Shown here: positions 42,367-53,964 of the stretch, piece by piece
How positions within the stretch are numbered: the first letter of the stretch is position 1
Layout of the letters: every line of letters begins with the position of its first letter
Assembly (NCBI RefSeq): GCF_001306035.1
Contig: NZ_LGCM01000029.1
Span: forward strand, 1-64,000
Reading direction: 5' to 3'
DNA: 64,000 nucleotides
Origin: Levilinea saccharolytica
GTDB taxonomy: Bacteria > Chloroflexota > Anaerolineae > Anaerolineales > Anaerolineaceae
Notes under the pieces: generated by a model
Database searches by the model: none
Seen by the model: the letters and a program-made list of their open reading frames with translations, nothing else
Told to the model about the DNA's origin: nothing
Translations under genes and position numbers: made by a program

Positions 42367-43110
42367 TTACTGCAAGCTCTGCCGCAAACCAGCCAACTGC
42401 CCGGCCACCGAGCCGTCCACCACACGGTCGCCCACGCGCACCACCAGGCCGCCCAAAATGGCCGGGTCCACGCGGAAGGTGATCGTCCCGCCGCTGTCGA
42501 GCGTCTTCAGCAAGTCGCGGCGCACCGCTTCCTGCTCCGCTTCAGTCAGGGGCAGGGCTGAGGTAACCTCAGCCGAGGCGCCGCGCAGGCCGGATTCTTC
42601 CACCAGCGTCACCTTGCCGGAACGCACGCCGGAGAAGAACTCATCCACCAGCGCGCGCTGACGGGTCTCATCTGCCTTCAGCGACTCGCCAATCAAGCGC
42701 TGCGTCGCCGCAATCGCCAGGCTGGCCACCTGACTGCGCAGACTGGCCAGAGCCACATTGCGTTCCGAGGCCACTTCTGCCAGGGCCACTTCGCGGGCTT
42801 TGGCGGTTTCCGCTTCTGAGGCTGCGCGCACTTCACGGGCAGCCACTTCGGCCCGGTCAGTCGCTTCGCGCACAATCTCCGCGGCTTTGGTTTGCGCTTC
42901 AGACAAAATCCGGCTGGCCTCTCGCTCTGCATTTGCGCGGGCGTCCGCCGCCACACGGGCGTCTTCCAAACCCTGCGCAATCGTCTCGCGCCGCTTTTCC
43001 AACATGCGGATAATCGGCTTGACCACCCAGGCATTGATCACCACAAACATGATCAAGAAGTTGAACAGCTGTACCAACAGATAGCCGAGGCTAATTCCCA
43101 ATCCTTCCAA
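42367..43110 (-). CDS. atpFH: ATP synthase b subunit fused to the delta C-terminal domain
   Basis: A 247-residue protein. Residues 1-165 are a normal F0 b: membrane helix (LLVQLFNFLIMFVVINAWVV), then a long charged coiled coil ending AIAATQRLIGESLK and ALVDEFFSGV. Residues ~178-247 are the C-terminal domain of the delta subunit: VTSALPLTEAEQEAV, DPAILGGLVVRVGDRVVDGS and AGLRQSL. The N-terminal six-helix domain of delta, which caps the alpha subunits, is absent. It is the last gene of the F0 operon; the ATG at 43110 is close to an AAGGAG site. Confidence in both domains is high. Confidence 0.9.
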   Translation of the reverse strand: MEGLGISLGYLLVQLFNFLIMFVVINAWVVKPIIRMLEKRRETIAQGLEDARVAADARANAEREASRILSEAQTKAAEIVREATDRAEVAAREVRAASEAETAKAREVALAEVASERNVALASLRSQVASLAIAATQRLIGESLKADETRQRALVDEFFSGVRSGKVTLVEESGLRGASAEVTSALPLTEAEQEAVRRDLLKTLDSGGTITFRVDPAILGGLVVRVGDRVVDGSVAGQLAGLRQSLQ

Positions 43111-43146
43111 GGCGGTACTCCTTCCTTTTTAGCGGTGGTCTTCGGA

Positions 43147-43383
43147 CTAAAGAACGAAGAGCATTAAGAATGCGATCACCAAGCAGTAGATCGCGATCGC
43201 TTCTGAAAAAGCGATGCCCAGGATCATGTTCGTCAAGAGGGTCCCGTAGGTATCTGGGTTGCGGGCCATGCCTTCCAAAGCCCCTTGCACGCTCAACCCA
43301 ATGCCGATACCCGCACCCAACGCGCCGATCATCGCCAGACCAGCTCCAATGAATTTTGCAGCCATTACGATATCGCCTGTCAT
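43147..43383 (-). CDS. atpE: ATP synthase F0 subunit c
   Basis: A 78-residue two-helix hairpin that forms the rotor ring. Helix 1 has the packing motif GAGIGIG; the loop is ARNPD; helix 2 carries the ion-binding Glu61 in IAFSEAIAIY. The Gln of sodium-type c rings (GxGQG) is Ile here and the Ser after Glu is Ala, so a proton ring is expected. AGGAGG sits before the ATG. It stands between atpB and the b/delta fusion as in normal operons. Confidence 0.93.
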   Translation of the reverse strand: MTGDIVMAAKFIGAGLAMIGALGAGIGIGLSVQGALEGMARNPDTYGTLLTNMILGIAFSEAIAIYCLVIAFLMLFVL

Positions 43384-43455
43384 TCGAACGTCTCCTCCTG
43401 AGTCTCTAGGTTCAATCTAAACTGGTTTCAAGCGTGGTCGCTTCGGTATTTCCGC

Positions 43456-44433
43456 TTACGAATGTTCCTCGCCGCCGTGCCCCACCGTGGCCTGCGCCAT
43501 GAACACCATGGTGAGCATGCCAAAGACGAAGGCCTGGATCAAGCCGATGAAGAACTCAAACAAATAGATGCCCGAGGGCAAGAAAGTCGGCAGCATGGTG
43601 CCGATCAAAATCAACAAGACCAACCCGGCGAACATATTGCCGAACAACCGGAAGGCAAACGAGAGAATTTTCGCCAGCTCTGAGATCAGTTCCAGTATAC
43701 CCACGGCCAGGTCAATGGCGCCAAAACCGGGTTTGGTGAAGATCGTGCGCACATTCAGAAATTTGAGGAAATAGCCCAAACCCTGCGCGCGAACGCCGAT
43801 CACCTGGGTCATAAATACCGAAAACAGCGCCAATGCCACGGTGAAGTTCAGGTCCGTGGGCAGTCCGCGCAGGAAGCCGATCAGCGCATACCCATCGTGG
43901 GTTTCGGCGTGGGCATCTCCCTGCACCAGCGAATAAATCCCAGGCAGAATCTCCTGCACCGGGTTGCCGTGATCCGAATGATGCAGCAGGCCGATGGTTT
44001 CATACCCCGGCAGCAGCTTGCTCCAGTTGGCCACCAGCACCACCAGGGTGATCGCCGCGAAGTAGGGGAAAATGCGCTTGGTCCACTTGCCCGCTGAAGA
44101 TTCGGTCAGGTTGTACAGCGCTTCCATCAAAGCTTCCACCGCGCCGTAGATCCCCTTCGGAACTAGGCTGTCGCCCTTGGCGAAGCTGCGCACCGCCAGC
44201 GCCAGCGCCAGGATGATCGCATCCATCACCAGCATCGCCAGCATGGTGTTGGTCAGGTACACATCCCCACCCAACGAAAACAGCGGCTTCTTGGATACAG
44301 CTTCTGCGGCAACCTGAATATGCGGCCGCACCGGGAAGAAGTAGTTCACCGAAACAGCCGTTAATATGGCAAAGAGCAGCACCAACCAGCGGTTCACCCC
44401 CCAGCGCCACTTACGAGTTTTGGTTTCTTCCAA
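43456..44433 (-). CDS. atpB: ATP synthase F0 subunit a
   Basis: A 325-residue membrane protein, stator partner of the c ring. The essential Arg is in SFAFRLFGNMFAGLVL; the last helices are FIGLIQAFVFGMLTMVF. The TTG at 44433 is chosen because AGGAGG lies at the right distance just upstream; an ATG at 44505 would lie inside atpI and precede that site. Overlap with atpI is then 23 bases. A periplasmic-side insertion of about 30 residues (YETIGLLHHSDHGNPVQE) is larger than in short forms. Confidence 0.92.
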   Translation of the reverse strand: MEETKTRKWRWGVNRWLVLLFAILTAVSVNYFFPVRPHIQVAAEAVSKKPLFSLGGDVYLTNTMLAMLVMDAIILALALAVRSFAKGDSLVPKGIYGAVEALMEALYNLTESSAGKWTKRIFPYFAAITLVVLVANWSKLLPGYETIGLLHHSDHGNPVQEILPGIYSLVQGDAHAETHDGYALIGFLRGLPTDLNFTVALALFSVFMTQVIGVRAQGLGYFLKFLNVRTIFTKPGFGAIDLAVGILELISELAKILSFAFRLFGNMFAGLVLLILIGTMLPTFLPSGIYLFEFFIGLIQAFVFGMLTMVFMAQATVGHGGEEHS

Positions 44434-44725
44434 CGCTTGCCTCCTTCTGTTGCGAAGATGGGGATCCAATCTGCGTCTTAATGCGCGCAACCGCTCCCCG
44501 AACAATGACCAACATTAGCACGATGGAAATCGGTACGCTGACCGCCACCAAAATCAGGGTGATCACCGGTCGGGTCTGAAATTGCTGGTCCAACCACAAA
44601 CCCAAAAGAACAGAACCGAGCACAACGACCAGGGTTAAACAACCCACCTGCCCAGCAACCGCCGCCAATGCCAAATTGATGGCTTTTTGTTTCCCGTTGT
44701 TCGCGCCAGGAGCAGGATCAATCAT
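44411..44725 (-). CDS. atpI: AtpI/AtpZ-type accessory protein of ATP synthase
   Basis: A 104-residue protein with two membrane helices (about residues 25-45 and 55-75), the size and place of AtpI/AtpZ-like proteins that help assemble the c ring. It overlaps atpB. A TATAAT box ends 9 bases before the ATG, leaving no room for a leader; no ribosome site is visible, so it is probably leaderless and heads the operon. Confidence 0.78.
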   Translation of the reverse strand: MIDPAPGANNGKQKAINLALAAVAGQVGCLTLVVVLGSVLLGLWLDQQFQTRPVITLILVAVSVPISIVLMLVIVRGAVARIKTQIGSPSSQQKEASVGRNQNS

Positions 44726-44734
44726 AACGTAGAG

Positions 44735-44763
44735 ATTATATCAAAAGCGAAAATTCAAGTCAA
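44735..44763 (-). promoter_or_regulatory. Promoter of the ATP synthase F0 operon
   Basis: On the minus strand TTGACT (44763-44758), 17 bases, TATAAT (44740-44735), a near-consensus promoter. The -35 overlaps the stop codon of nuoN. Predicted start is within a few bases of the atpI ATG at 44725. Confidence 0.78.
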
Positions 44764-46217
44764 TAAACGATGAGACTTGCTGCTGCCTGACTGGCCCAGG
44801 TGTAAAACGGCGACACCAAAACGCCCAGCACCACCACCAGCACAACGCAGCCCACCAAGGCCGCCTTCCAGGCCGATGTCATGTTCAGCGGCTGAGTCTC
44901 ATTTTCCGCGCGGTCCAAATACACCACCTTCAGCACGCGCAGATAGTAGTACAGCGCCGCGACAGAGTTGACCACACCCACCACCGCCAGCCAGGCCATG
45001 TTGGCTTCCACCGCCGCGCCAAACACCAGCAGTTTGCCGATGAACCCAGCGAAGGGGGGAATGCCGCCCAAAGAAAGCAGCACCGCCAGCAGGATCAAGG
45101 CCGTCCCCGGCGAGCGGCGGCTGAGGCCCGCGTACGCGCTGATCTCGTCCGAACCCACCGCGCGCCCCACCACCATCACCACGCCAAAGGCGGCCAGGTT
45201 GGTGACCAGATAGGCCATCAAATAGTACATCGTGGCCGTCACGCCAAAATCGCTCTGTGCCGCCGCGCCGATCAAGATCGTCCCGGCCTGGGCGATGGAA
45301 GAATAGGCCAACAAGCGTTTGATATTCTTCTGGTTCAGCGCCTGTAAATTGCCCACCACCATGCTCGCCACCGCCAGCGCCGCAATCAGCCCCGTCCACA
45401 GGCTGCTCAGCGCCGGGTACACCACCAACAGCACGCGCAGCAGCACAGCAAAGCCCGCCGCTTTCGACGCGGTGGATAAAAAGCCCGCCACCGAAGTGGG
45501 CGCACCTTCATACACATCCGGCGCCCAAAAATGCAGCGGGGCCGCCGACACCTTGAAAGCAAAGCCCACCGTCACCAGCAGCGCCGTCAGCACCGCTAAT
45601 CCCGCGGGCAATTGTCCCGCACTCAGCTGCGCACCGATCTCATATAAATTCGTGCTGCCGGTGAAGCCGTACAGCAGGCTGAAACCGTACAGCATCACTG
45701 CCGAGGTCATCGCCCCGAACAGCAGGTATTTCACGCCGGATTCCACCGACTTCTTGTCGCGGATCAGGAAACCCGCCAGCGCGTACAGCGGGATCGAAGC
45801 GGTTTCAAACGCCAGATAGATCATGATCAGATCCACCACCGAGGCCATCAAGGTCATCCCCAGGGTGGAAATGACCAGCAGGGTGAAGAACTCACCGTGC
45901 TCGCAAATGCCCTCGTTCTCGGTGGCAAACAGCGCCGTGATGGCCATGCCGGTCACAAACAGCATGCGAAAGACAAAGCCGGTGCTGTCCAGGCGCATCA
46001 TCCCACCCCACAACAGCAGCGGCTCCGGCCCTGGGCGGGCAAACAGCAGGCTCAGCAGAATCACCACCGCGCCGCCCCCCGCCGCGATCCAGCCCAAAAA
46101 CCGGCAGCGGCGGCTGCGCCAGAGCAAATCCAGGGTCAGCAGCACCGCCGCCAACACCAGCAAGCCCAATTCTGGCAGGATCTTCAGCAGCATGTCACCC
46201 AATGGAACAGTCATCAT
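44760..46217 (-). CDS. nuoN: NADH-quinone oxidoreductase subunit N
   Basis: A 485-residue antiporter-like subunit of complex I with about 14 helices. Conserved parts include MTLMASVVDLIMIYLAFETASIPLYALAG and the proton-path Lys in LLFGAMTSA-preceding VKYLLFG, FKVSAAPLHFWAPDVYEGAPT and KRLLAYSSIAQAG. Last nuo gene; GGGAGGG precedes the start, and the stop overlaps the atp promoter. Confidence 0.95.
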   Translation of the reverse strand: MMTVPLGDMLLKILPELGLLVLAAVLLTLDLLWRSRRCRFLGWIAAGGGAVVILLSLLFARPGPEPLLLWGGMMRLDSTGFVFRMLFVTGMAITALFATENEGICEHGEFFTLLVISTLGMTLMASVVDLIMIYLAFETASIPLYALAGFLIRDKKSVESGVKYLLFGAMTSAVMLYGFSLLYGFTGSTNLYEIGAQLSAGQLPAGLAVLTALLVTVGFAFKVSAAPLHFWAPDVYEGAPTSVAGFLSTASKAAGFAVLLRVLLVVYPALSSLWTGLIAALAVASMVVGNLQALNQKNIKRLLAYSSIAQAGTILIGAAAQSDFGVTATMYYLMAYLVTNLAAFGVVMVVGRAVGSDEISAYAGLSRRSPGTALILLAVLLSLGGIPPFAGFIGKLLVFGAAVEANMAWLAVVGVVNSVAALYYYLRVLKVVYLDRAENETQPLNMTSAWKAALVGCVVLVVVLGVLVSPFYTWASQAAASLIVY

Positions 46218-46220
46218 TGC

Positions 46221-47687
46221 CTACCCTCCCAGCAGCCCAAGAATATTCTGAACTCCCGGCTGCAGCACCGAGGTCATCAGCGACGGGAACCAACCCAAAC
46301 CAATCATGAATGCGGCCAACAACCCAATCGCCAGCTTATCCATCCAGGTGATATCCGGAATGTTCTGGAACTGCTTGGGCAGCTCGCCAAAGAACACCCG
46401 CCGCACCACCAGCAGAATATAACCCGCCGTTACCACCACCCCCAGGATGGCGATGATCGCCACCAGCGGGGCCGTGCGCCAGGCCCCCATGAAAATGGGG
46501 AATTCCGCCACAAATCCGCTGAACCCAGGCATGCCCATGCTCACCAGACCGGCAATGATAAAGCCCACCGCCGCCCAGGGCATCTTCTGCACCAAACCGC
46601 CCAACTGGCTCAGCTCGCGCGTGTGGGTGCGGTCGTATACCATGCCGACCACAGAGAAGAAGAGAGCCGTCATAATGCCGTGCGAGAACATCTGCATCCC
46701 CGCCCCCAACAGGCTGTCGTGGTTGAGGCATGCAAAGCCAATCAGCACCAGGCCCATATGCGAAACGGATGAAAAGCCGATGACGTACTTGAAATCGCTC
46801 TGAATCAGCGCGATCAGCGCACCGTAGACCACATTGATGGTGGCCAAAACCAGCACCGCCGGAGCCCAAAAGCGCGCCCCATCCGGCAGCAGCATAATGG
46901 CCACGCGCAGGGCCGCAAACGCGCCCACCTTCATTTCCACACCCGCCAGCAGCATGGAAACCGCCGTGGGTGCGGCCACGTGGCCGTCCGGCGCCCAGCT
47001 ATGGAAGGGGAAAATGCCGCTCAACACGCCGAAGCCCAAGAAGAGGAAGGGGAACCACAGCTGCTGAAAAGCGATGGGGAAGCCGGCCTTTTCCAGCACC
47101 AGCATGTCAAAGGTGCGCAGCCCCGACCCAAAGTAAATCGCCAGCGCGCCCACCAAAGCCAGCACCGAACCGGCGAACAGGAACAGGGTCAGCTTCATGC
47201 CGCCGTATTCGCGCGTCTTGGGCGACCCCCACAGGATGATCATCAAGTATTTGGGAAAGACCGCCAGTTCAAAGAAGAAGAACAGCTGAAACAGGTCCAG
47301 CGAAGCGAACACGCCCAACACGCTGGAACCCAGGAACATCAAATAGGAGAAGAACTCCCGCGGTCGCTCATCCACATGCCACGAAACCAGCACACCGGTG
47401 AACACCACCAGCCCCGAGAGCAAGATCAAGGGCAGGCTCAGCCCATCTACCCCCACATGGTATTGAATCCCCAAAGCCGGAACCCAGGGCGCGGTCTCAA
47501 CAAACTGATACCCCGCCTGGGCCACATCGTAAAGCGCATACACCGCCACGCTCAGCACCAGCACAACCGCCGCGCTGCCCAGGGCGATCCCGCGGATCCA
47601 ATCTTTGCGCTGGGCTGGCACCATCAAAAGCACAATCCCGGCCAGCAGTGGTATGAAGATTAAGACGCTCAAGATAGGAAACTGCAT
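46221..47687 (-). CDS. nuoM: NADH-quinone oxidoreductase subunit M (second copy)
   Basis: A 488-residue proton-pumping antiporter-like subunit. Conserved sites are FFFELAVFPKYLMI (the Glu on helix 5), GIFPFHSWAPDGHVAAPTAVSM, KYVIGFSSVSHMGLVLIG and MPGFSGFVAEF. It is preceded by another nuoM in the same operon, with 10 bases between them. The two differ clearly, so this is an old paralogue, not a recent duplication. GAGAGGTGAG lies before the ATG. Confidence 0.94.
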   Translation of the reverse strand: MQFPILSVLIFIPLLAGIVLLMVPAQRKDWIRGIALGSAAVVLVLSVAVYALYDVAQAGYQFVETAPWVPALGIQYHVGVDGLSLPLILLSGLVVFTGVLVSWHVDERPREFFSYLMFLGSSVLGVFASLDLFQLFFFFELAVFPKYLMIILWGSPKTREYGGMKLTLFLFAGSVLALVGALAIYFGSGLRTFDMLVLEKAGFPIAFQQLWFPFLFLGFGVLSGIFPFHSWAPDGHVAAPTAVSMLLAGVEMKVGAFAALRVAIMLLPDGARFWAPAVLVLATINVVYGALIALIQSDFKYVIGFSSVSHMGLVLIGFACLNHDSLLGAGMQMFSHGIMTALFFSVVGMVYDRTHTRELSQLGGLVQKMPWAAVGFIIAGLVSMGMPGFSGFVAEFPIFMGAWRTAPLVAIIAILGVVVTAGYILLVVRRVFFGELPKQFQNIPDITWMDKLAIGLLAAFMIGLGWFPSLMTSVLQPGVQNILGLLGG

Positions 47688-47697
47688 CGCTCACCTC

Positions 47698-49230
47698 TCA
47701 GAACCACAGGCTCATCGCCAGGCTAATCATGCTCACGGTGCGATTGATCACATCCAGCGCCCAGGCCGGCCACACGCCCAGGATCAGCATCAAGACCATC
47801 AACGGGGCGATCACGATCCCTTCGCGCAGGCTCATCTCCGGCAGTTTCCCCTTCCAGCGCTCGTTCAGCGGCCCGTGCAGCACCATCTTGAGCGCCTTGA
47901 GGATGTACGCGCCGGTGAAGAACAAGCCGATCATGCTCAGCGCTGTGGCCAGCGTGAACACCGGCCAGGCTCCCCGCACCACCAGGAACTCCGATACAAA
48001 CCCCGCCAGACCCGGCAGCCCCAGTGAACCCATCGCCGTGAACAGCAGCACCCCGCCGTACACCGGCATCTGCGCAAACAGCCCGCCAAATTCCGTCAGG
48101 TCGCGCGTGTGGGTGCGCTCATAGATCACGCCCACCAGGAAGAACATCCCCGCCGCCGAAAGGCCGTGCGTCACCATTTGCAGCACCGCGCCGTTCAGCG
48201 CGATGACCGCATCCTGGCTGCCCACCGCCGCGGCCGCTGCGGCGATCCCCAAAACCACAAAACCCATATGGTTAATGGATGAATAGGCCACCAGCCGTTT
48301 AAAGTCTTTTTGCCCAAAGGCGCCCAGCGCCCCAAAGATGATCGCCAAAGCCCCCAGCGCCGCCAGCCAGCCCGCGAACAGTTTCGATTCCAGCGGATAC
48401 AGCGGCAGCACCAGGCGCAGGAAGCCGTACGCGCCCAGTTTCAGCAGCACACCGGCCAAAATCATCGAACCGGCAGTCGGCGCTTCGGTGTGCGCGTCGG
48501 GCAGCCAGGTGTGGAACGGCCACACCGGCACCTTGATGGCAAAGGCGATCACAAAAGCCCAAAAAGCCACCGCCTTCACCGTTGCCATCGGCAGCCCCAG
48601 CAAAGTGCCGCTGTTCAGCGCCGGCCAGATCTGGAACAATTCCGTCAAGTCAAAAGTGCCCGCCACCACTCCAATCATCTGAGTGGCCAACAGCAGCCCC
48701 AAAGAGCCGCCCATGGTGTACAGGATGAATTTCAGCGCCGCATAGTTGCGCCGCGTCCCACCCCACTGCGCGATCAGGAAATACATGGGCACCAGGCCCA
48801 CCTCCCAGAACACGAAGAACAGCAGCAGATCCAGCGATAAGAAAACGCCCAGCATGCCCGTTTCCAGCAGCAGGAACAGGAACATATAGGCCTTCACCCG
48901 CTCCGTCACCGTGAAAGAGGCCAAAACCGCCAGCGGAGTCAGCACCACGGTCAGCAGCACCATCATCAGCGAAATCCCATCCACCCCCAGATGGTATGAG
49001 GATTGAATCGCCGGATACCACGGCATCATTTCGACAAATTGAAAGCCCTCCGCCGAAGGGTCAAAGCGCGCCCACAGCCCCAGCGCCAGCCCAAAAGGAA
49101 CCAGACTGGCCGCCAAAGCTGCCCAGCGCAGCACCCGGATGTTTTTCGCAGGCAGGAACAGCAGTACCACCGCGCCCACCACCGGCGTGAACAAAATCAG
49201 GGTCAGGAGATGATTGGTCAAGAGATCCAT
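47698..49230 (-). CDS. nuoM: NADH-quinone oxidoreductase subunit M (first copy)
   Basis: A 510-residue subunit M with FFVFWEVGLVPMYFLIAQWGG, KVPVWPFHTWLPDAHTEAPTAGS, KRLVAYSSINHMGFVVLG and LPGLAGFVSEF all in place. It follows nuoL by 14 bases. As there are two NuoM here plus L and N, the complex could have four antiporter-like channels instead of three. Confidence 0.94.
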   Translation of the reverse strand: MDLLTNHLLTLILFTPVVGAVVLLFLPAKNIRVLRWAALAASLVPFGLALGLWARFDPSAEGFQFVEMMPWYPAIQSSYHLGVDGISLMMVLLTVVLTPLAVLASFTVTERVKAYMFLFLLLETGMLGVFLSLDLLLFFVFWEVGLVPMYFLIAQWGGTRRNYAALKFILYTMGGSLGLLLATQMIGVVAGTFDLTELFQIWPALNSGTLLGLPMATVKAVAFWAFVIAFAIKVPVWPFHTWLPDAHTEAPTAGSMILAGVLLKLGAYGFLRLVLPLYPLESKLFAGWLAALGALAIIFGALGAFGQKDFKRLVAYSSINHMGFVVLGIAAAAAAVGSQDAVIALNGAVLQMVTHGLSAAGMFFLVGVIYERTHTRDLTEFGGLFAQMPVYGGVLLFTAMGSLGLPGLAGFVSEFLVVRGAWPVFTLATALSMIGLFFTGAYILKALKMVLHGPLNERWKGKLPEMSLREGIVIAPLMVLMLILGVWPAWALDVINRTVSMISLAMSLWF

Positions 49231-49244
49231 CGTCCGCGCTCCCC

Positions 49245-51434
49245 TTATGCCATCACAAAGAAAAAGTAGATGATCGCGCTGGCCGCCAGCACCACCGCCA
49301 ACCCCATCAGCATGTACTGCTGCAGCCGGCCGGTCTGAATCTTGCTGGTCTCCGCGCCCAGTTTGCGCGTGCCCCCCGCCACCACTGTATCCCCCAAAAA
49401 TCGGTTGATCACCGGCAGGTCAAAGCCGTTGCGCAGCACGCCGCCCAGCCACAAGCCCGCTGCGGCAATGCCGTGGAGAATGCCGTCAATCACACCCCGA
49501 TCCAGCCAGCGGTCGGTGAACACCTCCGACACCCAGCGGGAGAAGCGCACCACGGTGGCCCCGTACAGCTCGTCAAAGTAGTACTTGTTCTGCAGCAGGG
49601 TGTACACCGGCCCCAGGGGCTTTTGCAGGGGGTCTTTTTGCCCCGCGCGCACATCCCGGTACACCCACCAGCCCAGCGCCAACCCACCCAGCGCCACCAC
49701 CAGCGAGGTGATCAGCGGCACCAGGCTGTGATGTGCCGCCTCACCGTGCACCAGCAGCATCTCACCCACAAATTCCTCAAACCAGTTGGGCACCAACCCG
49801 CCCAGCCCAGGAAAGGCTTTGGGGATGCCCACCCAACCGGCGGTGATCGCAAAAAAGGCCAAAACCACCAGCGGCGCCGTCATCACCGCGCGCGATTCGC
49901 TGGCGTGTTCGGCCGCTTCGCTGCGCGCCTGGCCCAAAAAGGTCAGGGTGATCTGCCGCGCCGTGTAAAAGGCCGTCAACAGGGCCGCCAGGGCCAAGAT
50001 GACGAAGACCCACACATGCCCGCCGTTAAACGCCCCGGATAGGATTTCATCTTTCGACCAAAAACCCGCCGTCACCAGAGGGAAGCCCGAAAGAGCCAGC
50101 CCGCCCGCCAGGAAAGTCCAAAACGTCACCGGCATTTTCTTGCGCAGGCCGCCCATGTGCTGCATATCCTGCGGGTCAATGTGCTGGTGGGTATGCAGCA
50201 CACCGTGTTCCATGCCGTGGATCACCGAGCCCGACCCCAGGAAGAGCAGCGCTTTGAAGAAGGCGTGCGTCACCAGGTGGAACGCCGCTGCCACATACGC
50301 CCCCACCCCCAGGGCCGCTATCATGTAACCTAATTGAGAGATGGTCGAATAGGCCAGCACACGCTTGATGTCATTTTGAGCCACGGCGATCGTAGCCGCA
50401 AACAGCGCCGTCACCGCCCCCACCACCGCCAGGGTCATCATCGCCGGGGTCAGCGCCCCACCGCCGTCCCAGCCCGCCGAAATCAACGGGAAGAAGCGGA
50501 TGGAAAGGTACACGCCCGCCGAAACCATGGTGGCCGCGTGGATCATGGCCGAAACCGGCGTGGGGCCTTCCATCGCGTCCGGAAGCCACACGTGCAGCGG
50601 GAACTGGGCGCTCTTGCCCACCGTGCCCATGAAGATCAAAATGCCAATCAACCCCGCCCACGACAGCCCCAAAACAGGCGCCGCCTGGCTGGCCAGCATC
50701 TCCAGCACAGTCGGGTTGGCCAGAATCTCCTGGTAATTCAGCGTGCCGGTCATCTTATACAGGGCCGCCATGCCCAGGAGCATGAACATATCCCCCACGC
50801 GCGTGGTCAAAAAGGCCTTCACAGCCGCGTCGCGCGCCGAGGGCTTGGCATACCAGAAACCAATCAGCAGATAAGAGCACAGGCCCATGATCTCCCAGGC
50901 CATGTACAGGGTCAGCAGGTTATCCGTCACCACCAGCAAGAACATGCCAAAGGCGAACAGCGAGATCATGGCAAAGAAGCGGCTGTACATCGGCTCCACC
51001 GACGGAACCTGATGGCCGTGCCCCTTGACCTTCACCGTCGCCCCGTGAGGCGGCAGGCCCGGCTTATCATGATCGCCCGCGGGCTGACCAAAGTTGTGGT
51101 AGCCCACGCTGTACACAAAGATCATCAGCACCGTCCAGGCCACGAAGAACAGGATCACCGCTGACAGCGGATCGACCTGCACGCCGATCTTGAACGCGCC
51201 GTCGCCCAACGGCAGCCAGTTCACCTTCAGGTCTACCCCCAGCGGATGCTTGGCCAGCTCTTCACGGCCTACCGCCGTGAAGAACACCACCATGCTCGCC
51301 AGCCAGGATAACCCCGCCGCCCCAATCGCCAGGCTGTGGCTTAGCGCTTTAGAGCGGTTGGTAAACAGCACAATCGCCGCGAATGCCAGCAGCGGGGGAA
51401 GCGGGATGAGCCAGATCAACAAGTCCATATTCAT
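49245..51434 (-). CDS. nuoL: NADH-quinone oxidoreductase subunit L
   Basis: A 729-residue subunit L, longer than the roughly 610 of E. coli. Core motifs: YMAWEIMGLCSYLLIGFWY, LHVWLPDAMEGPTPVSAMIHAATMV and KRVLAYSTISQLGYM. The long lateral-helix tail ends in a last membrane helix (LMGLAVVLAASAIIYFFF). An insertion of about 30 residues rich in His (NFGQPAGDHDKPGLPPHG) sits between helices 3 and 4 before EPMYSRFFA. Extra length in the lateral arm could span a second NuoM. GGAGGG precedes the ATG. Confidence 0.95.
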   Translation of the reverse strand: MNMDLLIWLIPLPPLLAFAAIVLFTNRSKALSHSLAIGAAGLSWLASMVVFFTAVGREELAKHPLGVDLKVNWLPLGDGAFKIGVQVDPLSAVILFFVAWTVLMIFVYSVGYHNFGQPAGDHDKPGLPPHGATVKVKGHGHQVPSVEPMYSRFFAMISLFAFGMFLLVVTDNLLTLYMAWEIMGLCSYLLIGFWYAKPSARDAAVKAFLTTRVGDMFMLLGMAALYKMTGTLNYQEILANPTVLEMLASQAAPVLGLSWAGLIGILIFMGTVGKSAQFPLHVWLPDAMEGPTPVSAMIHAATMVSAGVYLSIRFFPLISAGWDGGGALTPAMMTLAVVGAVTALFAATIAVAQNDIKRVLAYSTISQLGYMIAALGVGAYVAAAFHLVTHAFFKALLFLGSGSVIHGMEHGVLHTHQHIDPQDMQHMGGLRKKMPVTFWTFLAGGLALSGFPLVTAGFWSKDEILSGAFNGGHVWVFVILALAALLTAFYTARQITLTFLGQARSEAAEHASESRAVMTAPLVVLAFFAITAGWVGIPKAFPGLGGLVPNWFEEFVGEMLLVHGEAAHHSLVPLITSLVVALGGLALGWWVYRDVRAGQKDPLQKPLGPVYTLLQNKYYFDELYGATVVRFSRWVSEVFTDRWLDRGVIDGILHGIAAAGLWLGGVLRNGFDLPVINRFLGDTVVAGGTRKLGAETSKIQTGRLQQYMLMGLAVVLAASAIIYFFFVMA

Positions 51435-51448
51435 ACGCCCTCCGCGGC

Positions 51449-51757
51449 CTAGCCTTTCATCAGGTTCAATTCGTCTGCCATCACGGTTGTGCGCCGCCGG
51501 TAAACGGAAATGATCAGCGCCAAACCCACAGCCGCCTCAGCTGCGGCAGCCGCAAAGACAATGGCCACAAATACCAGGCCGTTCATCTGCCCCGCGTACC
51601 GATAAGCCCAAAACGCCAACAGATTAATATTGACCGCGTTGAGCATCAATTCCACGCCCATCAACATGCCGATGGTGTTTTTGCGCGCCAACACACCGAA
51701 CAAACCAATGCAGAATAACGCTGCGCTGAAAATGAGGAACCAGGAAATAGGGATCAT
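51449..51757 (-). CDS. nuoK: NADH-quinone oxidoreductase subunit K
   Basis: A 102-residue three-helix subunit, typical length. The conserved Glu residues are in GMLMGVELMLNAVNINLLAF and AAAEAAVGLALIISVYR. The ATG overlaps the nuoJ stop (ATGA). It takes part in proton transfer near the quinone arm. Confidence 0.95.
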   Translation of the reverse strand: MIPISWFLIFSAALFCIGLFGVLARKNTIGMLMGVELMLNAVNINLLAFWAYRYAGQMNGLVFVAIVFAAAAAEAAVGLALIISVYRRRTTVMADELNLMKG

Positions 51758-52278
51758 CGCTTGCCTTCCTTCCGGTCGGTCGCCAGATAAATGGCCGCCA
51801 CCATCGCCCCCAGCAGCAGCGCCGAGGCAATCTCAAAGGGAAGCACGAAACCGTTGGGGTCCACCAGGGCCTTGCCTAATTCCATCACATTCTCGCCTTC
51901 GGCCCCCACCGTGCGCGTGCTCAAGCCAAAATCGCCCCAACCGGATAGAACCACCACCAGCCCCACGAACAGCAGCACCACAACCACCAACGGCAGCCAC
52001 CATCCGCGGTTCACCTGCGGCCCCACATCTTCCATCGAATTGCGCGTCAGCATCACCGCCACAATGATCAGCGTGGCGATAGCGCCGATGTACACGAACA
52101 CCTGAATCACCGAGAAGAAGCGGCTGCCCAGCATGGCAAAGGTGGCGGCCACCCCCATCAGCGCCAGCACCAGCCACAGGGCCGCGTGCACCAGCTTGCG
52201 CGAGCTGACCACCTTGACTGCCGCAAACAATGTGATCAGCGCGTTAACCAGGAAAAAAGCTTGCAGTCCAGTTATCAT
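51754..52278 (-). CDS. nuoJ: NADH-quinone oxidoreductase subunit J
   Basis: A 174-residue five-helix subunit. YIGAIATLIIVAVMLTR is the usual conserved helix with the pi-bulge area. ATG at 52278 has GGGGA upstream; a TTG nine bases earlier overlaps the nuoH stop and is the alternative. Normally nuoI lies between nuoH and nuoJ; here the two are adjacent. Confidence 0.93.
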   Translation of the reverse strand: MITGLQAFFLVNALITLFAAVKVVSSRKLVHAALWLVLALMGVAATFAMLGSRFFSVIQVFVYIGAIATLIIVAVMLTRNSMEDVGPQVNRGWWLPLVVVVLLFVGLVVVLSGWGDFGLSTRTVGAEGENVMELGKALVDPNGFVLPFEIASALLLGAMVAAIYLATDRKEGKR

Positions 52279-52283
52279 CGTCT

Positions 52284-53498
52284 TCAATCCCCTGGGTCAG
52301 TTGGAGCGGGTTGTACATAATGCGCCACAGGCCGCGGAGCCTGGGCCACCTGCCGCCGCGCGGAGCGCCGCCGGGTCATCAGCCGGTCCGCAGCCGCGAA
52401 AATGATCCCGTTCAAAGCCAGCATCACCACCAGCCGCAGCCCCGCCATCTCCGCCGGAACGATCTTTCCAGCCACCGCCGTTGCGGCCACCAGCACCAGA
52501 GCCAGCGGCGTCAAATACTTCCAGTTCAAATCCATCATCTGATCAATGCGGAAGCGCGGCAGGGACGCCCGCATCAGAATGCCGATGAAATACACCACTG
52601 CGGTTTTCAGCGCGAAATACACAAAACCCAGCATGGGGTACTGCTCAGCCCCAGGGCCGCGCCATCCGCCCAAATATAGGGCGGCAAACAGCAGTGAAAT
52701 GGTGAAGGCATGCAAAAAGTCCGCCACATAGAACATGCCGAACTTCAAGCCCGAATATTCAATGTTGAAGCCCGAAACCAGCTCTGATTCCGATTCCACC
52801 AGGTCAAAAGGCGTACGTCCCACCTCGGCAATAGAAGAGATGAAGAAAATCAGCGCAGCCACCGGAGCCAGAAAGATAAACCAGATATCCTGCTCTTTCA
52901 CCAATGCCTGCAAACTCATCGAACCGGTGAACATCACCGGGATCATCAATGCCAGCACCATCGGCACTTCGTAAGAGATCAGCTGCGCCACCGCGCGGAA
53001 GGCGGCCAGCATGGCATATTTGTTGTTGGAACCCCAACCCGCCAGGATGACGCCCATTTCGCCCAGCGCGCCCACCGCCATCAGGTACAGCACGCCCGCG
53101 TTGAAATCCACGCCGACCACCGTAGCGGTGAAGGGGATCACCGCCCACACCATCAGCACCGCCCCCACCGAGATCACCGGCGCCAGGTTATAAGCTACAC
53201 CGTCTGCCCCATCCGGGGTGATGTGCTCTTTGGTGAAAATCTTGAGCATATCCGCAAAGGTTTGGAAAATGCCCCACGGCCCCAGCCGGTTCGGCCCCAG
53301 GCGGTCTTGCACGCGGCCAATCAGCTTGCGTTCCAACCAGATCAGGAACACCACCAGCAGCATGGCCAGCAGCGTGGTCACAAACGCGCCAATCAAATAC
53401 ATCACAAAAGTCACCAGGCCGGGCTGTAACCCCCAGGATTCCAGCAGCCCCTTTAACCAGGCGATCACAAAATTGATGGGATCAATCCAGAAGCTCAT
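52284..53498 (-). CDS. nuoH: NADH-quinone oxidoreductase subunit H
   Basis: A 404-residue subunit that forms the quinone cavity. Conserved regions: RKLIGRVQDRLGPNRLGPWGIFQ, ADMLKIFTKEHITP, GWGSNNKYAMLAAFRAVAQLISYEVP and SIAEVGRTPFDLVESESELVSGFN. A basic, Pro-rich C-terminal tail of about 35 residues extends past the last helix. GGAGGTGG lies before the ATG. nuoB, C and D, usually found before it, are missing. Confidence 0.95.
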   Translation of the reverse strand: MSFWIDPINFVIAWLKGLLESWGLQPGLVTFVMYLIGAFVTTLLAMLLVVFLIWLERKLIGRVQDRLGPNRLGPWGIFQTFADMLKIFTKEHITPDGADGVAYNLAPVISVGAVLMVWAVIPFTATVVGVDFNAGVLYLMAVGALGEMGVILAGWGSNNKYAMLAAFRAVAQLISYEVPMVLALMIPVMFTGSMSLQALVKEQDIWFIFLAPVAALIFFISSIAEVGRTPFDLVESESELVSGFNIEYSGLKFGMFYVADFLHAFTISLLFAALYLGGWRGPGAEQYPMLGFVYFALKTAVVYFIGILMRASLPRFRIDQMMDLNWKYLTPLALVLVAATAVAGKIVPAEMAGLRLVVMLALNGIIFAAADRLMTRRRSARRQVAQAPRPVAHYVQPAPTDPGD

Positions 53499-53519
53499 GC
53501 CACCTCCAGCTTTCGCGGG

Positions 53520-53876
53520 CTATGCCCACTCCAAAGCGCCCTTCCGCCAGGCATAGAGCAGCCCGCCCAGCAAGATGGCAATGAACAGCAGCGCTTCTAC
53601 CACGGCAAACAAGCCCACCTGGTTATACGCCACCGCCCAGGGGTACAGGAAAATCGTCTCCACATCGAACACCAGATAGACCAGCGCATAGACGTAATAC
53701 TGCGGCTTGAACTGGATCCAGGTTTCGCCCACGGTTTCCATACCGCATTCGTAAATGGATGTTTTGAGTGGATCGGGTTTCTTGGGGGATAACAGCGCCG
53801 CGATGGTAATGGCTGCGGCGGGAAGGAAAAGGGAGATTACCGTAAAAATTCCCAGGTAAAGCCAGTCATCCAGCAT
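53520..53876 (-). CDS. nuoA: NADH-quinone oxidoreductase subunit A
   Basis: A 118-residue three-helix subunit. Conserved SIYECGMETVGETWIQFKPQYYVYALVYLVFDVE with the quinone-site Glu/Asp residues. ATG at 53876 follows AGGAG. First nuo gene; nuoH comes next after 21 bases. A TAAAAT at about 53945 on the minus strand may be the -10 box. Confidence 0.94.
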   Translation of the reverse strand: MLDDWLYLGIFTVISLFLPAAAITIAALLSPKKPDPLKTSIYECGMETVGETWIQFKPQYYVYALVYLVFDVETIFLYPWAVAYNQVGLFAVVEALLFIAILLGGLLYAWRKGALEWA

Positions 53877-53964
53877 GAGGCTCCTCCATTCACCACGCTT
53901 AAGTTGAATTTGAGCGGTCTCATACACCGCTGAGGCCTGTAAATTTTATCACAAGTTGACCAAC

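Follow-up and report, generated by a model that had tools for sequence, protein, structure and literature searches.

The first 64,000 nucleotides of contig NZ_LGCM01000029.1 of Levilinea saccharolytica (RefSeq assembly GCF_001306035.1), hereafter the window, encode on the reverse strand a membrane arm of respiratory complex I with two NuoM subunits. The system belongs to a type that is already known, the split 2M complex I of Chloroflexi. Taken as a whole, the evidence is very probably best explained by such an enzyme, in which the arm works with a connector of NuoB, fused NuoCD and NuoI from another contig and in which the second NuoM (NuoM2) lacks the Glu/Lys switch of its relatives. The draft assembly of the source genome comprises 65 contigs and 4.23 Mb, at 97.65% completeness and 4.94% contamination; the window operon lies on the contig labelled C5, and the connector genes on C23.

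Eight open frames with strong family matches run on this strand from 53927 to 44760 in the order nuoA-H-J-K-L-M-M-N, just as an earlier note, made from the sequence alone, had read them. All membrane subunits of complex I (A, H, J, K, L, M and N) are present, and two nuoM genes, the mark of a 2M complex I, are among them. The two NuoM are distinct, as that note held: they share 34% identity, and are respectively 47% (NuoM1) and 36% (NuoM2) identical to the NuoM of a canonical operon on contig C64 of the same genome. The nearest NuoL relatives among named genomes come from Anaerolineae and related Chloroflexi metagenome-assembled genomes (MAGs), at 65-72% identity; most of the closest share the operon order, and one, at locus L042, is without NuoM2.

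According to PMC7117926, which cites Chadwick et al. 2018, cultured Chloroflexi and a Lost City MAG have the order nuoL-M1-M2-N, keep nuoBCDI separate from it and have nuoC fused to nuoD; Anaerolinea thermophila serves there as the reference for NuoM1 and NuoM2. The Levilinea system shows all these traits of the split 2M type: the arm order is the same, nuoBCDI is separate, nuoC and nuoD are fused, and in the portions consulted no difference in gene content is apparent. To that published description we add the loss of a lysine in NuoM2 and a linkage to ATP synthase genes. The assignment to the 2M type, also made in the earlier note, is borne out by the two nuoM, an insertion of ~29 residues in the lateral helix (HL) of NuoL and the connector on C23.

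Other 2M enzymes are more distant. As far as the parts consulted go, that of Chloroflexus (PMC3150298, PMC8004040) resembles the Levilinea system in its duplicated nuoM, in a set without NuoG and in the presence of a second complete operon; unlike the window operon, it keeps its connector genes within the membrane-gene cluster. The clade 3 enzyme of Nitrospira (PMC6606698, PMC12342949) likewise has two NuoM and a lengthened NuoL, but its cluster is described without nuoE, nuoF and nuoH, with an enlarged NuoG and with separate NuoC and NuoD. Finally, the canonical 14-subunit complexes of E. coli and of C64 have homologous subunits, yet possess a single NuoM, an HL segment of 52-56 residues against 86 here, and the E, F and G subunits.

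NuoM2 and the lysine of transmembrane helix 7

In a first set of 38 two-M operons (37 loci and the window), the lysine of transmembrane helix 7 (TM7), K234 in E. coli NuoM, is present in every NuoM1 and in no NuoM2 (37 Leu, 1 Thr). A sample of the class gives the same picture, with 15/15 for NuoM1 and 0/15 for NuoM2 (11 Leu, 4 Thr). Like their canonical counterparts, the NuoL, NuoM1 and NuoN of the window keep the lysine in the alignments. In the excerpts available, the Glu-Lys pair of ND4, including K232 of P. denitrificans, taken as E. coli K234, is reported as essential for catalysis (PMC9802314); function is reported to be lost when K234 is mutated (PMC3046159), and the E144/K234 ion pair belongs to a proposed pumping wave (PMC9271201). 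Lacking the lysine, NuoM2 therefore cannot use this ion-pair switch.

The lysine-less lineage is old. In a single FastTree run, the 58 lysine-less NuoM group together in a clade (support 98) that contains no lysine-bearing row, so that the phylogeny of both copies, which the earlier note had suggested, sets NuoM2 apart from NuoM1. Also in this clade are NuoM that stand alone in their operons, from Desulfoscipio (L098), Syntrophomonas (L107) and Verrucomicrobiota (L089, L117 and L097); NuoM2 is thus no recent copy of NuoM1. All these single-NuoM operons have a short HL, and L089 and L117 carry F-G or E-F-G upstream (the L097 locus excludes the upstream part). They constitute natural tests of how essential the TM7 lysine is.

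NuoM2 of Nitrospira was not recovered by a search of 148 genomes from the phylum of a Nitrospiraceae MAG, of which 82 match at E 1e-95 or better. All 34 NuoM examined there (30 loci and four others; 31 show L-M-N, with N not visible in three) have the TM7 lysine, and the 2M genes are probably not among them.

We propose that the membrane arm would join NuoB, NuoCD and NuoI of C23 to form a quinone oxidoreductase without an NADH module (EFG) of its own. NuoL, NuoM1 and NuoN would act as ordinary antiporter-like proton pumps. NuoM2 would be a fourth antiporter-like unit, placed by gene order probably between NuoM1 and NuoN, that relays or moves protons without the Glu/Lys switch found in its neighbours; its presence may make the pump longer and yet bring no fifth proton gated in the same way. 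Behind this lies the question of whether every antiporter-like subunit in complex I pumps a proton of its own, and ejection of all four protons through ND5/NuoL has also been proposed (PMC9802314, in the part available). The lysine loss calls into question the idea that a second NuoM simply pumps one proton more, and a four-unit enzyme with one lysine-less unit, next to long-helix three-unit relatives, provides a comparison set for proton stoichiometry.

Lateral helix of NuoL and the number of NuoM

The NuoL of the window was rightly described as long: its 729 residues compare with 670 in the canonical copy of the genome and 613 in E. coli. Some 29 of the extra residues are found in HL, and ~25-32 in a loop near residues 115-147. 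The HL insertion directly precedes the last transmembrane helix, and contains a second copy of a ~27-residue (F/W)Dxxx(I/V)(D/N) unit. In an AlphaFold2 model (mean pLDDT 77 for the whole; 51-76 in 10-residue blocks of HL, and a low 51-58 in its inserted part) HL is predicted as one continuous helix. It is long, and not of the normal length that the earlier note had named as adverse to its view. A second model, of the long-HL NuoL of a one-M operon (L069), has pLDDT 37-55 in its HL blocks and is not used as evidence.

Across 140 NuoL rows, the HL segment measures 52-57 residues in 17 cases, 80-86 in 114, 92 in two, 104 in two, 108 in four and 136 in one. Successive units of the form (F/W)Dxxx(I/V)D are spaced 26-28 residues apart in 80 of the 102 spacings measured. 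In P. denitrificans, the docking site for an HL aspartate consists of a His and a Tyr in ND4/NuoM (PMC9802314, in the part consulted); each HL repeat may therefore represent one NuoM dock, and the second copy in the lengthened helix may serve to dock a NuoM. Of the residues aligned with this docking site, the His is kept in 36/38 NuoM2 and the Tyr is replaced by Phe in 23/38.

Length alone does not count NuoM subunits. In the class sample, HL is long in 15/15 two-M arms, and equally in 41/42 complete one-M arms; as a diagnostic marker of a fourth unit it was therefore rejected, since most of the one-NuoM relatives examined have helices just as long. Among one-M loci with N, 72/74 have no gap above 300 bases at L-M or M-N. 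One exception, L085, is a two-M operon whose M1 frame had been missed, and is counted as such; the other, L198, belongs to the 41 long-helix one-M arms and has 3.3 kb between its nuoL and its single nuoM, with an HL segment of 104 residues.

An unlinked extra NuoM gene as the cause of long helices was not found where it was sought, by PF00361 searches at E 1e-20 in two hand-chosen sets of 12 and 19 genomes, where counts in MAGs may miss genes. Five genomes combine exactly three PF00361 genes with a long HL: G108 and G111 among the 12, G017, G007 and G068 among the 19. Two chromosome-level genomes (L069/G100 and L108/G106) hold six such genes each, by position two L-M-N sets. The longest HL seen, 136 residues, belongs to L179, whose genome is one of the five with three PF00361 genes at that threshold. 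With it, L191, L193, L194 and L195 (HL 108) show two or three extra ~27-residue repeats despite a single NuoM.

Several observations weigh against the reading of NuoM2 and of the lengthened helix given above. Most other channel residues are kept in NuoM2, from which some proton conduction can be argued: the places of Glu144 (38/38), Lys265 (35/38), His322 (38/38), His348 (36/38) and Glu407 (37/37 with a residue there) are largely intact. Of a full set of channel residues, NuoM2 lacks the TM7 Lys and retains the other main ones. Charged columns enriched in NuoM2 exist at E. coli places 114, 168, 379, 438 and 465, and may help it to move a proton. In the 123 NuoL rows with a countable number of NuoM (51 two-M, 72 one-M), the long HL is found in 51/51 two-M NuoL, yet also in 58/72 one-M ones. 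And the docking motif occurs twice in only 25/51 long two-M helices, against 45/49 one-M helices of 80-86 residues; the remaining two-M helices of this size have one unit (20), none (5) or three (1).

The retained residues speak for a NuoM2 that is a fourth full proton channel, giving five protons per reaction cycle, and an extra proton has been hypothesized in print (PMC7117926 and PMC6606698, in the parts consulted). We regard this as a serious possibility, although the balance of evidence leans away from it. The TM7 Lys, missing from NuoM2 throughout both samples, is reported as essential in NuoM/ND4. In the scan of charged columns, no charge enriched in NuoM2 lies within ten places of it, the five such columns being elsewhere. 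The HL reaches the same length where there is no second nuoM gene. The earlier claim that a long NuoL points to four channels is thus not upheld, and a fourth channel equal to the others is doubtful.

The history of the helix is harder to read. The NuoL tree implies two changes each for the number of NuoM and for the HL class, with weak support (as low as 27 in a two-M group and 37 in a long-HL group), and a test with independent pairs yields 2 pairs and is uninformative. Tentatively, the lengthening of HL would have preceded the second NuoM. The NuoL of L042 falls inside the two-M clade, and in its operon NuoM1 is followed directly by NuoN: NuoM2 was apparently lost there.

A broader proposal joins these threads. 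NuoM2 of this 2M group (Chloroflexota, Verrucomicrobiota, Acidobacteriota) would belong to a single ancient line of NuoM that works without the lysine switch of TM7, adding no fifth identically gated proton; HL would be a ruler built of repeats, lengthened before the second NuoM arrived, and the enzymes of some relatives with one NuoM may contain that NuoM more than once. We put it forward as a tentative idea, less likely to hold than not. In the parts of the papers returned by our literature searches, a check that covered sources other than Chadwick et al. 2018 itself, there is no statement of a NuoM2 without the TM7 lysine or of a long HL with one NuoM.

It is unlikely that HL is a ruler of ~27-residue NuoM-docking units, such that long-HL enzymes with a single NuoM gene incorporate its product more than once. 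The mostly stepwise lengths (52-57, 80-86, 108, 136) and the regular spacing of the repeats favour it, as does the 136-residue helix of L179 in a genome with three PF00361 genes at E 1e-20. Repeats in HL could expand without extra subunits, though, and lengths of 92 and 104 also occur; two-M helices that show the motif twice are only about half of their class; work on mutants of P. denitrificans interprets the helix as purely structural (PMC9802314, in the part consulted); and the frequent Phe of NuoM2 replaces the docking-site Tyr.

Candidate connector set and likely electron donor

As the earlier note anticipated, the genes for the connector to the peripheral side lie elsewhere. We ran tblastn with B, CD, C, D, E, F, G and I of the same genome, and G and I of E. 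coli, as queries: B, C, D, E, F and I have no match at E 1e-3 in the window and the next 20 kb, in agreement with the absences that the note listed. For NuoG the claim stands only near the operon. One weak match, the sole one for G in the same range, lies at 2069-2680, at a distance of 42 kb from the operon; it aligns with the NuoG of the C64 operon over 217 aa at 23.5% (E 1e-5). Whole-genome family searches place no D, F, C or B family member on contig C5.

The same searches locate NuoB, NuoC and NuoD relatives on C64, C23, C13 and C27, with an extra NuoB relative on C17. C64 carries a complete canonical 14-gene nuoA-N operon, in which K was assigned by its sequence match. C13 (L033) and C27 (L034) carry complex-I-related clusters with antiporter-like genes of their own nearby, and their NuoD relatives bear CxxC pairs towards either terminus, like NiFe hydrogenases. 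C23 remains: there, nuoB, a fused nuoCD and nuoI form a cluster away from any membrane arm. Aligned by eye, its NuoB has cysteines at the N2-ligand places, its NuoCD has the His and Tyr of the quinone site but lacks any CxxC pair, and its NuoI has two CxxCxxCxxxC (4Fe-4S) motifs. A connector with B, C, D and I and without a NiFe site is thus encoded outside the window. As the other NuoD-like sets (C64, C13, C27) own membrane genes, the C23 set is by elimination the candidate partner of the window arm, with which it would assemble into one complex.

Co-occurrence in related genomes points the same way. The class sample comprises 100 genomes, in which 60 NuoL loci from 59 genomes were read, of 66 places listed besides that of the window. 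A hit across both NuoCD parts is found in 43 of the 46 genomes without B, C, D and I beside the arm (G087, placed by hand, among them), versus 0 of the 13 with these genes beside it; kinship among the genomes sampled weakens these statistics. NuoB and NuoI adjoin NuoCD in 25 of 30 loci read, our own included; of the five exceptions, two are truncated, and L140, L142 and L144 carry canonical nuoA and nuoB there instead. Sixteen of the 60 genomes with a fused-NuoCD hit gave none for NuoL at the chosen threshold, and G022 has one that lies outside the loci read. Less in keeping with a complete split arm, nuoA is unseen in 11/46 split loci, mostly cut at a contig end.

E, F and G have no match beside the arm nor in 19 kb around the C23 set, so the pair shows no NADH-linked module of its own and, as the earlier note had guessed, the donor is likely another than NADH. 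Reduced ferredoxin is for this reason the likeliest partner: most likely the enzyme would be fed by it, or would run in reverse to reduce it, as proposed for the 2M complexes of Nitrospira (PMC6606698, in the part available). Shared use of the EFG subunits of the C64 operon, or of a hydrogenase-linked NuoEFG on C17, may however take the place of ferredoxin. Genes of the 51K (NuoF) family occur only on C64, C17 and C37 in searches of the whole genome; the searches for E and G covered the surroundings of the arm and of the C23 set. The C17 gene stands beside hydrogenase-like genes, and that of C37 in a formate dehydrogenase cluster. The C17 cluster (L035, 42-51 kb) combines VhuA- and VhuG-like hydrogenase genes with NuoE-, NuoF- and NuoG-like ones and a second 51K-family gene, and is a possible alternative electron entry.

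That the window arm is an alternative one, sharing the peripheral arm (B-G, I) of the C64 operon, is quite improbable. The complete set on C64 and the lack of these genes beside the C5 arm would allow it; against it, a separate nuoB-CD-I exists on C23, NuoCD of this kind goes with split arms, and the C23 proteins are clearly different from those of C64 (55% identity for NuoB, 45% for NuoD).

We give hardly any credence to the arm being a relic or silent duplicate. The earlier note had considered a second complete nuo operon next to a silent set: its first half is real, the canonical operon being on C64, while the eight frames are open, their order is kept in most of the closest relatives, ATP synthase genes follow in most comparable loci, and both nuo sets are transcribed in Chloroflexus aggregans (PMC8004040, in the part consulted).

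Linked Fo genes and further observations

Genes for the Fo part of ATP synthase, from atpI to a fused b-delta gene (42367..44725), directly follow nuoN, and the membrane parts of complex I and of ATP synthase are thus clustered at this locus. The only gene found in the genome for the F1 gamma subunit is on another contig, C65. Where a locus extends 700 bases or more past nuoN, this gene is linked to Fo genes in 31/34 other split two-M loci (the exceptions are L040, L062 and L066), in 1/29 split one-M loci (L179) and in 0/44 loci with connector genes upstream.

Table 1. Features of the split complex I locus, its Fo neighbours and the C23 connector (window positions unless a contig is given).
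Feature	Position	Strand	Remarks
nuoA	53520..53927	-	135 aa from GTG; PF00507 1.1e-37; the end at 53876 given in the earlier note implies a later start
nuoH	52284..53498	-	quinone-site membrane subunit; 404 aa; PF00146 7e-112
nuoJ	51754..52287	-	177 aa; PF00499 4.3e-31
nuoK	51449..51757	-	102 aa; PF00420 8.3e-24
nuoL	49245..51434	-	extended lateral helix; 729 aa; NF005141 NuoL 615.7 bits (cut-off 556)
HL of NuoL	49347..49586	-	residues 617-696; one continuous helix in the AlphaFold2 model
HL insertion, ~29 residues	49344..49430	-	NuoL residues ~669-697; from alignment with own canonical and E. coli NuoL and from repeat spacing
nuoM1	47698..49230	-	510 aa; TIGR01972 531 bits; residues aligned with E. 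coli E144, K234, K265, E407 kept
nuoM2	46221..47687	-	488 aa; TIGR01972 466.6 bits; residues aligned with E144, K265, E407 kept, K234 lost
Codon of NuoM2 Leu222	47022..47024	-	at the place of E. coli NuoM K234, by alignment
nuoN	44760..46217	-	485 aa; TIGR01770 403 bits (cut-off 332.6)
atpI	44411-44725	-	directly after nuoN
atpB	43456-44505	-	Fo gene
atpE-like ORF	43147-43383	-	called by place and by eye
Fused b-delta gene	42367-43110	-	ATP synthase
nuoB	C23:149910-150566		connector cluster, away from the membrane arm
nuoCD, fused	C23:148175-149932		connector cluster
nuoI	C23:147539-148159		connector cluster

The canonical operon of C64 is present twice (L030, C64:39000-58000, and L031, C64:89000-108000), as 18,510 identical bases that these two compared stretches of the contig share in inverted orientation; the 18.5 kb duplicate is most likely an assembly artefact.

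On C23, nuoI is followed by an unassigned open reading frame (ORF) that overlaps it, then by genes for an iron-sulfur carrier of the NUBPL/ApbC type and a protein of the RicT type. The gene for the alpha subunit of a 2-oxoacid:acceptor oxidoreductase (L032:530-2416), a possible link to reduced ferredoxin, lies some 3.6 kb past the RicT gene.

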